This document shows, in pieces, positions 11,703 to 35,418 of a DNA stretch of 35,841 bases. The notes beneath the pieces are model-generated. The model did no database searches, was not told where the DNA came from, and saw nothing but the letters and a program-made list of their open reading frames with translations. The position numbers were made by a program, and so were the translations under genes. Position 1 is the first letter of the stretch, and every line of letters starts with the position of its first letter. This DNA is from Veillonellaceae bacterium (GTDB lineage: Bacteria > Bacillota > Negativicutes > JAAYSF01), in contig JAAYSF010000079.1 in the NCBI GenBank assembly GCA_012523975.1, positions 1 to 35,841 of the forward strand, in the 5' to 3' direction.

Positions 11703-13103
11703 TTACGCCCCTTTACTTGCTTCCTCAGTCTTGTTAAGCGCGCTGTTGCGGTAGCTGTATACAAAGTATACTACAACGCCGAGTACTGACCAAATGCCAA
11801 AGCGCATCCAAGTATCTAACGGCAGATTATACATTAAATATCCACAGAACAATACAGCTAAAGGTGCTACTGCCCAAACAGCAGGACATCTAAACGGACG
11901 TTCAACATCCGGTTTAGTTATACGCATTACAGCAACCCCGACAGCCGCTACGCAGAAGGCGAATAGCGTGCCGATGTTAGTTAGTTCAGCAATGAGGCCT
12001 ATTGGCAAGAAGCCAGCAATTAATGCAACCGCAATACCTGCCACAATCGTAATGACGTGAGGAGTACCATACTTAGGATGGATTTTGCAAATACTAGCAG
12101 GAATAAGGCCATCACGAGACATAGCAAAGAATACACGCGTCTGACCATACATTAAAACCAACAGAACTGTTGTAATACCGCAAATCGCTCCGGTACCAAC
12201 CAATGCTGAACCTATATTATAACCAATATGTCTCAAGGCAAAAGCTACAGGTTCTGCATTATTAAGCTGATGATACGGAACCACGCCTGTAAGAACAGCG
12301 GCAACAGCAATGTACAGAACGGTACATACAAGAAGCGAACCTACGATACCAATCGGAAGATCTCGATTCGGGTTTTTACATTCTTCAGCGGCTGTAGCAA
12401 CAGCGTCAAAACCGATATAGGCAAAAAATACGATTGCAGCGCCTGCAGCTACACCCGAGAAGCCAAACGGCATTAGTGGTGACCAGTTAGCAACATTTAC
12501 TTTAGGGCCGGCAAGAGCCAAAAAGATGAATACAGCGGCAAGCTTAATAAAAACAAGTATTCTGTTTAAATTAGCGCTTTCTTTGGTTCCTAGCACAAGA
12601 AGCCAAGTTATGAATAGCGCGATAAACATTGCCGGTAAATTAACAATGCCACCGTCCGCTGGCACAGCAGTATATGCCGTAGATAGTTCAATACCACCTG
12701 ATTTTAATAATCCGACGACATAGCCCGACCAACCGGCCGCAACAGCACTTGAACCGACAGAGTACTCCAGAACAAGATTCCACCCGACAATCCAAGCAAA
12801 GAACTCACCCAACGCGGCGTACGTATAAGTATATGCACTACCTGAAATAGGAACAATGGACGCCAATTCAGCATACGCCAAGGCCGCAAATGTACAAGCT
12901 AATCCAGAAAGTATAAAAGATAGCATAATACCAGGTCCTGCATATTTCGCAGCTGCTACACCAGTTAAAACAAAAATACCGGTGCCGACAATACATCCGA
13001 TGCCTAGCAACACTAGGTCAGTAGCACCCAACGTTTTCTTAAGTGCAACTCTCTCAGCGCCAGCTTTAAGCATTTCAATACTCTTAGTTCGAAAAATATC
13101 CAT
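11703..13103 (-). CDS. APC-superfamily amino acid permease (CAT/YfnA-like)
   Basis: A 466-residue transporter with about 12 membrane helices. The first helix contains the substrate-binding GIGCIVGTGIFVLTG motif of APC permeases. The blocks AYAELASIVPISGSAYTYTY and FFAYIGFDAVATAAEECKNP are typical of the cationic amino acid transporter branch (YfnA/YhdG type), which exchanges or imports amino acids using the proton gradient. Substrate cannot be fixed from sequence. The frame extends 14 codons upstream, but GGTGGGGG sits 4 bases before the ATG at 13103. The gene sits between pheT and zapA with its own promoter, structured leader and terminator, so it is an inserted, separately controlled unit. 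Confidence 0.9.
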   Translation of the reverse strand: MDIFRTKSIEMLKAGAERVALKKTLGATDLVLLGIGCIVGTGIFVLTGVAAAKYAGPGIMLSFILSGLACTFAALAYAELASIVPISGSAYTYTYAALGEFFAWIVGWNLVLEYSVGSSAVAAGWSGYVVGLLKSGGIELSTAYTAVPADGGIVNLPAMFIALFITWLLVLGTKESANLNRILVFIKLAAVFIFLALAGPKVNVANWSPLMPFGFSGVAAGAAIVFFAYIGFDAVATAAEECKNPNRDLPIGIVGSLLVCTVLYIAVAAVLTGVVPYHQLNNAEPVAFALRHIGYNIGSALVGTGAICGITTVLLVLMYGQTRVFFAMSRDGLIPASICKIHPKYGTPHVITIVAGIAVALIAGFLPIGLIAELTNIGTLFAFCVAAVGVAVMRITKPDVERPFRCPAVWAVAPLAVLFCGYLMYNLPLDTWMRFGIWSVLGVVVYFVYSYRNSALNKTEEASKGA

Positions 13104-13106
13104 ATA

Positions 13107-13198
13107 CCCCCACCTTCTTTTTGCAAAATGTAGGGGACGATACAAAAAATAAGACCGAGCCCCAAGGGTCGGTCTCTAAGAAACAGATCGTTCCCCTG
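13107..13198 (-). promoter_or_regulatory. structured leader of the permease gene (candidate riboregulator)
   Basis: The transcript begins near 13198. An outer helix pairs AGGGGAACGAT (13187-13197) with ATCGTCCCCT (13132-13141), with one bulge. Inside lies a hairpin of AGACCGA/TCGGTCT (13152-13175) followed by TTATTTTTT, an intrinsic terminator. The 3' strand of the outer helix overlaps CCCCTAC (13130-13136), which can instead pair with GTGGGGG of the ribosome-binding site (13107-13113). The leader can therefore hide or expose the start site. It matches no riboswitch class that I recognise. The inner hairpin may also terminate pheT transcripts. Confidence 0.5.
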
Positions 13199-13204
13199 GT
13201 TAAC

Positions 13205-13233
13205 AGTGTAACACAGGCATTACGATCCGTAAA
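13205..13233 (-). promoter_or_regulatory. promoter of the permease gene
   Basis: TTTACG (13228-13233) and TACACT (13205-13210) are separated by exactly 17 bases on the minus strand. Each matches four of six consensus positions. It lies in the 36 bases just after the pheT stop codon. Confidence 0.5.
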
Positions 13234-13268: not shown

Positions 13269-15698
13269 CTATTTTCGGAGTTTAGCCGCAAATTTCTCTT
13301 TCAGGCAAACAATTATCCTTTTGTGGTATTCATCCACTTCAGCATCTGTCAATGTCCTATCTTGAGCCTGGAAGGTGAGCGAATACGCCATACTTTTAGC
13401 TCCAGCCGGCACCTGTTCACCCGTATAAAGATCAAATAAAGTAAGCGATCTCATTAATGGTCCCGCAGCATTTATAATTGCCGCCTCTACCTCACTTGCA
13501 GAAACTTCGACTGGCAAAATTACTGCTAAGTCACGATTAATAGCCGGAAACTTAGGTAACTGACTATAGGCATTAACAAGATTAGCTTTTTTAGCGATAG
13601 TCTCCATGTCTATTTCAAATAAATAGACCTTGCGGTTAATACCAAAAGCATCTAAAACTTTTGGATGAACCTCGCCGACTATTGCAATAAGCTCTTCGTT
13701 TTGAAAAAATTGAGCTGTTTTCCCTGGATGAAGTGAATAGTGCTGACCTAGGCAAACTTCATAATTCTCTATTCCTAATCCATTCAGAATTACTTCCACA
13801 TCACCTTTGGCATCATAGAAATCAACACTTTCTCGGGATAAATTCCAGGATAGTTGATTTTTGCTGCCCACAAGCGCACCGCAAAGCTTAAGATGCTCGT
13901 TTGGCAATGCTTCCAGCGGTAGTTCTTTTGGCCAATATACTGCGCCCACCTCATAAATCTTCATATCTTCATTTTTGCGTGATAGATTATAAACAATAGT
14001 TTGCAGCAGTCCAGCGGTTAATGTGGTCCTAAGAATTGGAAACTCATCCGTTATCGGATTTAATACAGTGATAGCATTACGCAGCGGACTTTGTTCAGGG
14101 ATATTCAATTTATCAAACACCTGCGGGTGAGAAAAACTATATGATATAATTTCGTCAAAACCTGCACCTAGCATTATATTTTTGACAGTGCTGATAATTG
14201 ACTGGGTATAATCCTGGCTGCCGCGACTCATATCTCCAAAAGGCGTAGTTGATGGAATGTTATTGTAACCATAAATGCGGGCAATTTCCTCAGCAATGTC
14301 GGCGGTCCCACTTACATCACCACGCCAAGTTGGTACGGTAACTAACAGTTTTTCTTGATCTGCTTCGATTTGAAATTCTAACCGTTTCAATATGTCAACT
14401 ATTACTTTTTGCTCAACTGACGTTCCTAAATGGTTATTAATTTGATCAGCTGTAAATTGAACTTGTTTAGGAAGTAATACATTCGGATAGTTATCTATTA
14501 CGCCTTCGCACACTTTACAAGCGCCCATATCCTCTAAAAGTTTAGCCGCACGGTCTAATGCTCTAATTATATTAGCAGCATCTACGCCTCGTTCAAACCG
14601 GCCGGAAGCCTCTGATCTCAGGCCAAGCGCCCGTGAAGTTCTTCTTATACTAGCGCCATTAAATACAGCACATTCAAGCAGCACTGTTTGCGTACGATTA
14701 GTTACTTCAGTAGCTAATCCGCCCATAATACCGGCAATACCGACTGCCTGAACCGCATCAGCGATAACCAGCATCTCAGGCGAGAGTTCACGTTTCTGAC
14801 CATCTAAAGTAGTCAGACGCTCCCCTGGCATAGCTTTTCTGACAACAATGCTATGTTTGGCTAACAGATCATAGTCATAGGCATGCATTGGCAGTCCCAT
14901 CTCGAGCATTACAAAATTCGTAACATCGACAATATTGTTAATTGGACGCATCCCGGCTGCTTGCAGGCGATGCTGCATCCAGGCAGGTGATGGGCCAACT
15001 TTAATATCTCTTAGAATCCTACAGGCAAATCTTGGGCAAAGTGATGTATCGTCAATACTAACAGTAGCCAAGCTGCTTGCTTTTGTCTCATCAGCCTCTC
15101 GAACATTAACCATTGGCTTCTTTAAGATGCCGCCAGTTAATACGGCAATTTCTCTAGCCAAACCAAGCATACTGAAACAGTCTGCCCGGTTGGCAGTCAA
15201 TTCGAATTCAAATACTATATCATTAAGTCCGAGCACTTCTTTAATGTCTAAACCAAGTTCCGTATCTTCAGGCAGTATATAGATACCACCTCTTGCATCT
15301 TGAGAAATCAGCTTGCTGTCAATACCAAGTTCAACAGCCGAACACATCATGCCAAACGAGGTAATGCCGCGCAAATCACTTGCCGTAATTTTAACATCAT
15401 TTGGCAGTGATGCTCCGACTAAAGCAACCGGTATAATGTCGTTCTCTTTTATATTCTTAGCACCAGTTACAATAGTAACAACTTCTTTACCAACATCGAC
15501 AGCACATACCGAAAGTTTGTCCGCATTTGGATGTTGTGTAATCGAAGTGATTTTACCGGTTACTACATTATTGATATCTTTCCCTAGATCTTCAATAGTC
15601 TCAACAGATACGCCAGCCATTGTAAGCATCTCAGCTAATTCAGCCGGTGTTTCTTTAAAATCAACATAATCTTTAAGCCATTTTATCGACGCGAGCAT
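13269..15698 (-). CDS. pheT: Phenylalanyl-tRNA synthetase beta subunit
   Basis: An 809-residue PheT of normal full length. It has an N-terminal tRNA-binding (EMAP-like) domain (about 40-150), the B3/B4 editing domain with SFGMMCSAVELGID upstream and MLEMGLPMHAYDYD, the B5 domain (about 400-470), the catalytic-like core (NILGAGFDEIISYSF-like segment) and a C-terminal FDX-ACB anticodon-binding domain beginning near KFPAINRDLAVI. With PheS it forms the alpha2-beta2 enzyme that charges tRNA-Phe and hydrolyses mischarged Tyr-tRNA. It is co-transcribed with pheS 30 bases upstream under the T-box. Confidence 0.97.
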   Translation of the reverse strand: MLASIKWLKDYVDFKETPAELAEMLTMAGVSVETIEDLGKDINNVVTGKITSITQHPNADKLSVCAVDVGKEVVTIVTGAKNIKENDIIPVALVGASLPNDVKITASDLRGITSFGMMCSAVELGIDSKLISQDARGGIYILPEDTELGLDIKEVLGLNDIVFEFELTANRADCFSMLGLAREIAVLTGGILKKPMVNVREADETKASSLATVSIDDTSLCPRFACRILRDIKVGPSPAWMQHRLQAAGMRPINNIVDVTNFVMLEMGLPMHAYDYDLLAKHSIVVRKAMPGERLTTLDGQKRELSPEMLVIADAVQAVGIAGIMGGLATEVTNRTQTVLLECAVFNGASIRRTSRALGLRSEASGRFERGVDAANIIRALDRAAKLLEDMGACKVCEGVIDNYPNVLLPKQVQFTADQINNHLGTSVEQKVIVDILKRLEFQIEADQEKLLVTVPTWRGDVSGTADIAEEIARIYGYNNIPSTTPFGDMSRGSQDYTQSIISTVKNIMLGAGFDEIISYSFSHPQVFDKLNIPEQSPLRNAITVLNPITDEFPILRTTLTAGLLQTIVYNLSRKNEDMKIYEVGAVYWPKELPLEALPNEHLKLCGALVGSKNQLSWNLSRESVDFYDAKGDVEVILNGLGIENYEVCLGQHYSLHPGKTAQFFQNEELIAIVGEVHPKVLDAFGINRKVYLFEIDMETIAKKANLVNAYSQLPKFPAINRDLAVILPVEVSASEVEAAIINAAGPLMRSLTLFDLYTGEQVPAGAKSMAYSLTFQAQDRTLTDAEVDEYHKRIIVCLKEKFAAKLRK

Positions 15699-16782: not shown

Positions 16783-17016
16783 AAACTTTCGCCCCGAAAG
16801 GGGCGAAAGTTTACTTCCGCGGTACCACCCTAATAAGTACTCTAGTTTCTTTAACGCAGAAAACGTCTGGCCTACACAAGAAGATTTCTCTTCAGCTCAG
16901 ATGCTCGGGAGCGAACTTCTGTCAGGTGTTTTTAGACGGCTCTCAGTCTTGGCGCATCCTCCCTGTAAAACCCTTCCTAACATACTCTCTCCGTCATGAC
17001 ATTTACCACTATTGTA
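16783..17016 (-). promoter_or_regulatory. T-box riboswitch of pheST, with promoter
   Basis: The T-box core AGGGTGGTACCGCGGAAG occupies 16814-16831 in minus-strand reading. It is followed by a strong terminator, AAACTTTCGCCCC paired with GGGGCGAAAGTTT and then a T run (16783-16813). Stem I lies upstream and contains a UUC triplet at 16913-16915 that could be the Phe specifier. An extended -10, TGTTACAAT (hexamer 17011-17016), places the start near 17004. Uncharged tRNA-Phe is expected to stabilise the antiterminator and switch on pheST. Confidence 0.93.
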
Positions 17017-22322: not shown

Positions 22323-22479
22323 TGCGACTCACCTCCTAATTATTCCAATAAAAAAATGGGCGGCTTTAGCCACCCATACAATCCACCAATAAGATATACT
22401 GGTATCAATCTACCTTACTAACTGCAATAAAGCGTTGCAAGGTGAGAAGCGGATGGCTTCTACTTCAAACATAATTTAC
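22323..22479 (-). promoter_or_regulatory. infC operon leader with attenuator (L20-leader type)
   Basis: The roughly 155-base leader starts with paired segments (GAAGTAGAAGC with GCTTCT) and an ACCTT/AAGGT helix. It ends in a terminator, GGGTGGC-TAAA-GCCGCCC (22358-22375) followed by seven T, only 27 bases before the start codon. In Bacillus such leaders bind L20 to cause early termination. The position and layout match; identity with the Rfam L20-leader family is not proven here. Confidence 0.7.
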
Positions 22480-30247: not shown

Positions 30248-30541
30248 TTGACAAACATTGCTTCTCAAAGTATATTAATATTATATATATATCAAATGTA
30301 ATGACTGGGAAGAGTAATCAGGCAGCGCTTTTTCAGAGAGTCAAGGGTTGGTGAGACTTGACAGGCGCCCTAAGATGAATACACCCAAGAACAGCTAGCT
30401 GAACGGATTTCAAGTAGGCGATGCCGGTTGCCACCGTTATTGGCTAAAGGCTGTGCGAGCCTTATGAAGTGGCTGATTAGGCAACATGGGTGGTACCGCG
30501 GGTTTAAAATCCGTCCCTATTTAGGGGCGGATTTTTTATTT
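30248..30541 (+). promoter_or_regulatory. T-box riboswitch of tyrS, with promoter
   Basis: Promoter TTGACA (30248-30253), 17 bases, TATATT (30271-30276). Stem I starts with GGGAAGAGTA and holds a UAC triplet at 30380-30382, the expected Tyr specifier. The core TGGGTGGTACCGCGGG is at 30487-30502. The terminator pairs AAAATCCGTCCCT with AGGGGCGGATTTT and is followed by T (30507-30541). Uncharged tRNA-Tyr should open the gene. Confidence 0.95.
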
Positions 30542-35227: not shown

Positions 35228-35248
35228 TAGTTACACCTCTCTTTAAAA

Positions 35249-35410
35249 CTGCCTCCGAGGTTAGCTGTCGGGTTAGGGTCAAAGAGAAGAAAAGAGAAGT
35301 AACCCTTCCGCAATAGCGGATTAACCCCTGTTTTTATATCGGTTCCCCCGTACTTACTCCATCTGCATATCCATGGCCTAAACCTAATAATGGTTGTACG
35401 ATTCGGCATT
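35249..35410 (-). promoter_or_regulatory. c-di-AMP riboswitch (ydaO/yuaA type)
   Basis: The transcript carries the conserved pieces in order: GCCGAATCG near 35407, GGGGGAACCGAT, GGGGTTAATCC, GGAAGGG, then CCCTAACCCGACAGC and TAACCTCGGAGGC near 35251. These are the signatures of the ydaO/yuaA element, which senses cyclic di-AMP and usually turns off wall hydrolase and ion transport genes when the ligand is high. Confidence 0.92.
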
Positions 35411-35418
35411 ATAGAAAT

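Follow-up and report, generated by a model that had tools for sequence, protein, structure and literature searches.

The Leader and Its Genes

Is the short interval between pheT and an amino-acid permease gene in this Veillonellaceae genome a regulatory leader, and if so, of what kind? In the window (the whole stretch of 35,841 nucleotides that was analysed) the leader is on the minus strand, as are all features described below unless stated, and lies between the stop codon of pheT (gene 13269-15698, stop 13271-13269) and the permease start at 13103. The permease gene (11703-13103) encodes a BcaP/ApcT-like member of the APC superfamily which matched Pfam PF13520 and had an ApcT-type protein, PDB 5oqt, as its closest solved structure (E=1.9e-170). 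Its nearest NCBIfam family was the BcaP branched-chain amino-acid transporter NF053761, with a score of 632.7 bits which falls below the curated cut-off of 690 bits. The gene zapA follows the permease gene, and the order pheT-permease-zapA is common to many relatives, including Lucifera and Pelosinus; two other genomes of the window's own family had no permease match at the threshold used. Rfam matches elsewhere in the window, at 16796-17006 (-), 30292-30521 (+), 35234-35418 (-) and 22342-22471 (-), comprised two T-box leaders, one c-di-AMP riboswitch and one L20 leader, the T-box leader at 16796-17006 being located before pheS.

A Conserved Promoter Follows pheT

A sigma-A type promoter (13233-13205) was identified by pattern search of the genomes of the class and by alignment. 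It consists of a -35 element TTTACG (13233-13228), a 17-nt spacer and an extended -10 element TGTTACACT (TGT-TACACT, 13213-13205), with transcription predicted to start at about 13198/13197. All pheT-permease intervals that were found were extracted for comparison, and the same arrangement was present in 18 distinct leaders from eight families, with TTTACC as the usual -35 element, the 17-nt spacer, the extended -10 and a start region which mostly read GTTAAC. Also common to these leaders was an upstream element, TGTC-N12-ACA (19 bp, 13260-13242 in the window), which kept its spacing constant at 19 nt in the leaders inspected, lay 7-9 nt upstream of the -35 element and is a possible activator or UP-type site. 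Alignment further revealed an inverted repeat GTTA-N6-TAAC over the -10 element and the start (GTTACACTGTTAAC, 13212-13199), carried by relatives as GTTAAACTGTTAAC or GTTAYMCTGTTAAC, which we regard as a putative operator.

The exact promoter pattern was found in 17 of the 379 genomes of the class, with every match at the permease leader and none elsewhere, and the reversed pattern used as a control gave zero matches in nearly all genomes. Permease-less relatives which were inspected had no such promoter after pheT, and a permease not linked to pheT (locus L095 of genome G041) retained a similar one; the promoter therefore belongs to the permease. A generic scan for promoters and terminators detected neither element in the window leader, the promoter because it scores only 8/12 and the terminator probably because its stem contains a bulge, so that both are supported by their conservation rather than by the scan. 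The conserved sequence of the leader corresponded to promoter DNA and about 10 nt of the 5' end, and a similarity search of the leader DNA against 200 relatives returned a single 29-nt match, in a genome of the class.

A Terminator Lies between Promoter and Permease

All folding energies reported here are predictions. An intrinsic terminator (13176-13144) follows the promoter in the window, with a hairpin at 13176-13151 of -15.2 kcal/mol and a tract of six U residues at 13149-13144. Intrinsic terminators of -15 to -26 kcal/mol were located between the promoter and the permease start codon in 17 of the 18 leaders, the exception being Lucifera (L003), in which promoter and permease are present and the terminator is absent. 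When fifteen leaders were folded jointly using RNAalifold, no consensus RNA structure emerged besides the terminator hairpin, 7 of whose 11 pairs showed compensatory changes. Promoter and terminator retained this order in 17 leaders from seven families despite divergence of the leader sequences, although these cases are not independent as the order is inherited by descent.

Most of the permease-less relatives inspected also had a terminator-like hairpin within approximately 150 nt after pheT. Plausibly, then, one terminator is shared with pheT, ending the pheST transcripts and also sitting in the permease leader. The distance of about 40 nt from U-tract to ATG in the window is too short for a second promoter and a ribosome site.

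A Helix Encloses the Terminator in Several Lineages

In the window the terminator is enclosed by an outer helix in which AGGGG-A-ACGAU (13197-13187) pairs with AUCGUCCCCU (13141-13132) through ten Watson-Crick pairs, with one bulged A. Against dinucleotide shuffles this helix gave p of about 0.007-0.015, a value which depends on how the segments are cut and rose to 0.24 once the downstream segment included the ribosome site. The 3' strand of this helix defies alignment, which makes pair counts from sequence alignments of little use for it, and slid controls performed equally well or better. In a partner-permutation test the best pairing between the segments before and after the terminator was determined for each species, and own pairs were compared with pairs made using segments of other species. 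The enclosing helix gave p = 0.0001-0.0002, and 0.0002-0.0004 with a composition control; these and the other p-values are descriptive, since they come from several ways of segmenting, testing and setting thresholds, and the clade grouping is coarse with leaders which share descent. The signal came from 5 of 11 lineages (the window, L072, L076, L078 and L082) and was not found in L005, L007, L073, L074, L080 or L081. As background, 1.3% of 155 other terminators in the same loci gave p below 0.02. The helix varies in sequence, and its positions are not homologous between lineages. Judged from these comparisons, the enclosing helix is a recurring, non-universal feature, real in several lineages and evolving fast.

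The promoter right after pheT, the terminator inside the leader and the outer helix around it had all been part of the original prediction for this locus. All are present in the window, at slightly refined coordinates; promoter and terminator are borne out by the relatives, and the outer helix is so as a feature which recurs around the terminator in several lineages.

With respect to other inverted repeats in this region, CGGATCGT just behind the -35 element and ACGATCTG at the leader's 5' end together form a near inverted repeat (13229-13183). A relative of the window's own family in which the permease is absent (locus L140, genome G001) carries, before its pheT terminator, the perfect palindrome CTGGTTAATAGCGTATATATACGCTATTAACCAG with AGGGG behind it, an arrangement which partly resembles TTAACCAGGGG of the window.

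No Excess of Ribosome-Site Pairing in Relatives

The permease has a Shine-Dalgarno sequence AGAAGGUG (13118-13111) 7 nt before the ATG. The original prediction proposed that the 3' strand of the outer helix could instead hide this site, giving a mutually exclusive translational switch. Such an alternative pairing does exist in the window: CCCCUAC (13136-13130), which shares its strand with the outer helix, can form seven pairs, one of them G-U, with GUGGGGG (13113-13107), covering the 3' part of the Shine-Dalgarno sequence plus the spacer. Its significance against dinucleotide shuffles was marginal (p about 0.09-0.10). In the isolated leader the ribosome-site-paired fold (-35.0 kcal/mol) was about 2.4 kcal/mol more stable than the outer-helix fold (-32.6 kcal/mol). 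For transcripts coming from pheT, the competing upstream pairing of CGGATCGT with ACGATCTG is predicted to disfavour the outer helix further. When the outer helix was forced, the Shine-Dalgarno core could still pair weakly with CAUUUU in the predicted fold. Among relatives, the ribosome-site pairing showed no excess over chance (permutation p = 0.20-0.26, and 0.75 with the composition control) and no covariation. Hiding of the ribosome site in an alternative fold, as would be expected of a riboswitch, thus appears not to be kept in relatives, and the proposed translational switch falls with it.

Comparison with Known Leader Classes

No match at the permease leader was obtained with Rfam at either gathering or relaxed thresholds, in the window or in its relatives, in agreement with the earlier view that the leader belongs to no recognised class; nor was a description of it found within the open-access literature searched. 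A search for an aptamer core with covarying helices found none, the terminator hairpin being the only consensus structure, and the comparisons yielded evidence neither of a translational switch nor of a domain that binds a ligand. An amino-acid ligand had been suggested as fitting the gene; while the gene does encode an amino-acid permease, nothing points to an amino acid as ligand of the RNA.

A T-box leader, with its stem I, specifier loop and antiterminator, was likewise not detected, as there was no RF00230 match at this site while the two other T-boxes of the window scored above threshold. A T-box remnant hinted at by GGGUGGAC in L076 was rejected, as the sequence is not conserved. Attenuation of the pyrG type, based on stuttering at a GGG run at the 5' end, was rejected because the start sequence varies. 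Pairing between the TGTC element and the leader's 5' end recurs in position but displayed no co-evolution (p = 0.48-0.66); if true, it would restrict termination to pheST transcripts.

This last type of pairing was attractive only in one family (f26; L004, L031, L083, L090 and L009), where no common promoter motif and no U-tract terminator were found in the pheT-permease interval. Here the interval where the promoter is expected is flanked by the arms of an inverted repeat, AAAGATGTCCC...GGGACATCTTT, which pair over approximately 12 bp; L009 carries an inverted repeat of different sequence, ATCGGCAAACCG...CGGTTTGCCGAT. With its 5' arm upstream of a promoter, a hairpin of this kind would be confined to pheST transcripts. 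Permease copies unlinked to pheT in L097 and L091 are preceded by inverted repeats resembling TATGTCA/TGACATA, reminiscent of the arms in f26.

Proposed Mechanism and Alternatives

The reading to which we give somewhat better than even odds is that the BcaP-like permease has a 5' leader with a conserved transcription-attenuation layout, a dual-use terminator and a lineage-specific, fast-evolving structure. The conserved sigma-A promoter directly after pheT would start the leader at about 13198, and the terminator at 13176-13144 would stop part of these transcripts ahead of the permease gene as well as ending the pheST transcripts arriving from upstream, so that permease mRNA would be the product of readthrough. 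As its 3' strand lies beyond the U-tract, the outer helix would fold only in readthrough RNA, making the hairpin part of one long stem at the 5' end, and it cannot itself be the antiterminator since the polymerase must first have passed the terminator. A competing pairing between the 5' end of the leader and the 5' arm of the terminator is a possible, weakly supported antiterminator, with partner-permutation p = 0.006-0.011, and 0.087 with the composition control. The terminators (-15 to -26 kcal/mol) are more stable than these possible antiterminators (about -3 to -16 kcal/mol as duplexes), so nothing found here would release them. By comparison among relatives the promoter, the terminator, their order and the recurrence of the enclosing helix are established, at the level of sequence; that termination is partial and regulated is what we infer from them.

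Against attenuation, the hairpin might serve pheST only, with the permease living on leakage, since permease-less relatives also have a terminator after pheT, and Lucifera lives without the leader terminator. A plain pheST terminator, preceded by the promoter by chance, with unregulated readthrough supplying the low permease level needed and surrounding helices of no regulatory role, would also account for the missing aptamer and the lack of a strong antiterminator. We consider this rather unlikely, as it leaves unexplained why promoter and terminator kept their order across seven families while the sequence around them diverged, and why the enclosing helix recurs beyond chance and is rare at other terminators of the same loci.

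Three further readings received little credence. It would be a long shot to see here a new Negativicutes leader class, in which the helix closing round the terminator after readthrough records polymerase escape and then, depending on a metabolite or protein, shields or uncovers the permease message. A small RNA (roughly 50-90 nt) with its targets among other transcripts, the permease mRNA being a by-product, would be consistent with the conserved start, the conserved 5' end (which resembles GGGAUGGACGUAG in several lineages) and the terminator; it is very unlikely given that the RNA body is not conserved, that permease-less relatives inspected lack the promoter, and that Lucifera has promoter and permease without the terminator. 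We hold least to a riboswitch or protein-bound leader which exchanges the outer helix for the 13136-13130/13113-13107 pairing to hide or free the ribosome site. Both pairings exist in the window, on one common strand and at similar predicted energies, but in relatives the key step stands at chance level (p = 0.20-0.75) with no comparative support, there is neither a conserved core nor an Rfam match, and the Shine-Dalgarno core can stay paired in the outer-helix state.

A published survey (PMC2965389) describes the sensing structures of attenuators as varied and quick to evolve, and transporter genes are among the genes affected. As with the ABC-leaders (Naville and Gautheret 2010, PMC2965389), the permease leader combines a terminator in front of a transporter gene with structures which vary between lineages and belong to no known class. 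It differs in that ABC-leaders are reported to form an antiterminator, for which support here is weak, and in that its terminator also occupies the place at which pheT transcription would end. The rimP-leader type attenuators likewise have a conserved terminator stem and no clear antiterminator, although the rimP stem is highly conserved in sequence (PMC2965389) and that of the permease leader only moderately so. Like the T-box leaders (RF00230), this is a terminator-based leader of an amino-acid gene; unlike them, it has no Rfam match and, at about 95 nt, is too short for a specifier stem.

In the attenuation reading which we favour, the locus looks like an ordinary, previously uncharacterised on/off leader of an amino-acid uptake gene. 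As a candidate attenuator of an amino-acid permease it is conserved, compact and testable; it comes from a class of diderm Firmicutes which has been little studied, and it stands directly behind pheST, genes with a T-box leader of their own. The reappearance of the enclosing helix with differing sequence is a point of interest, and the locus offers a case in which a single terminator seems to act for two transcription units.
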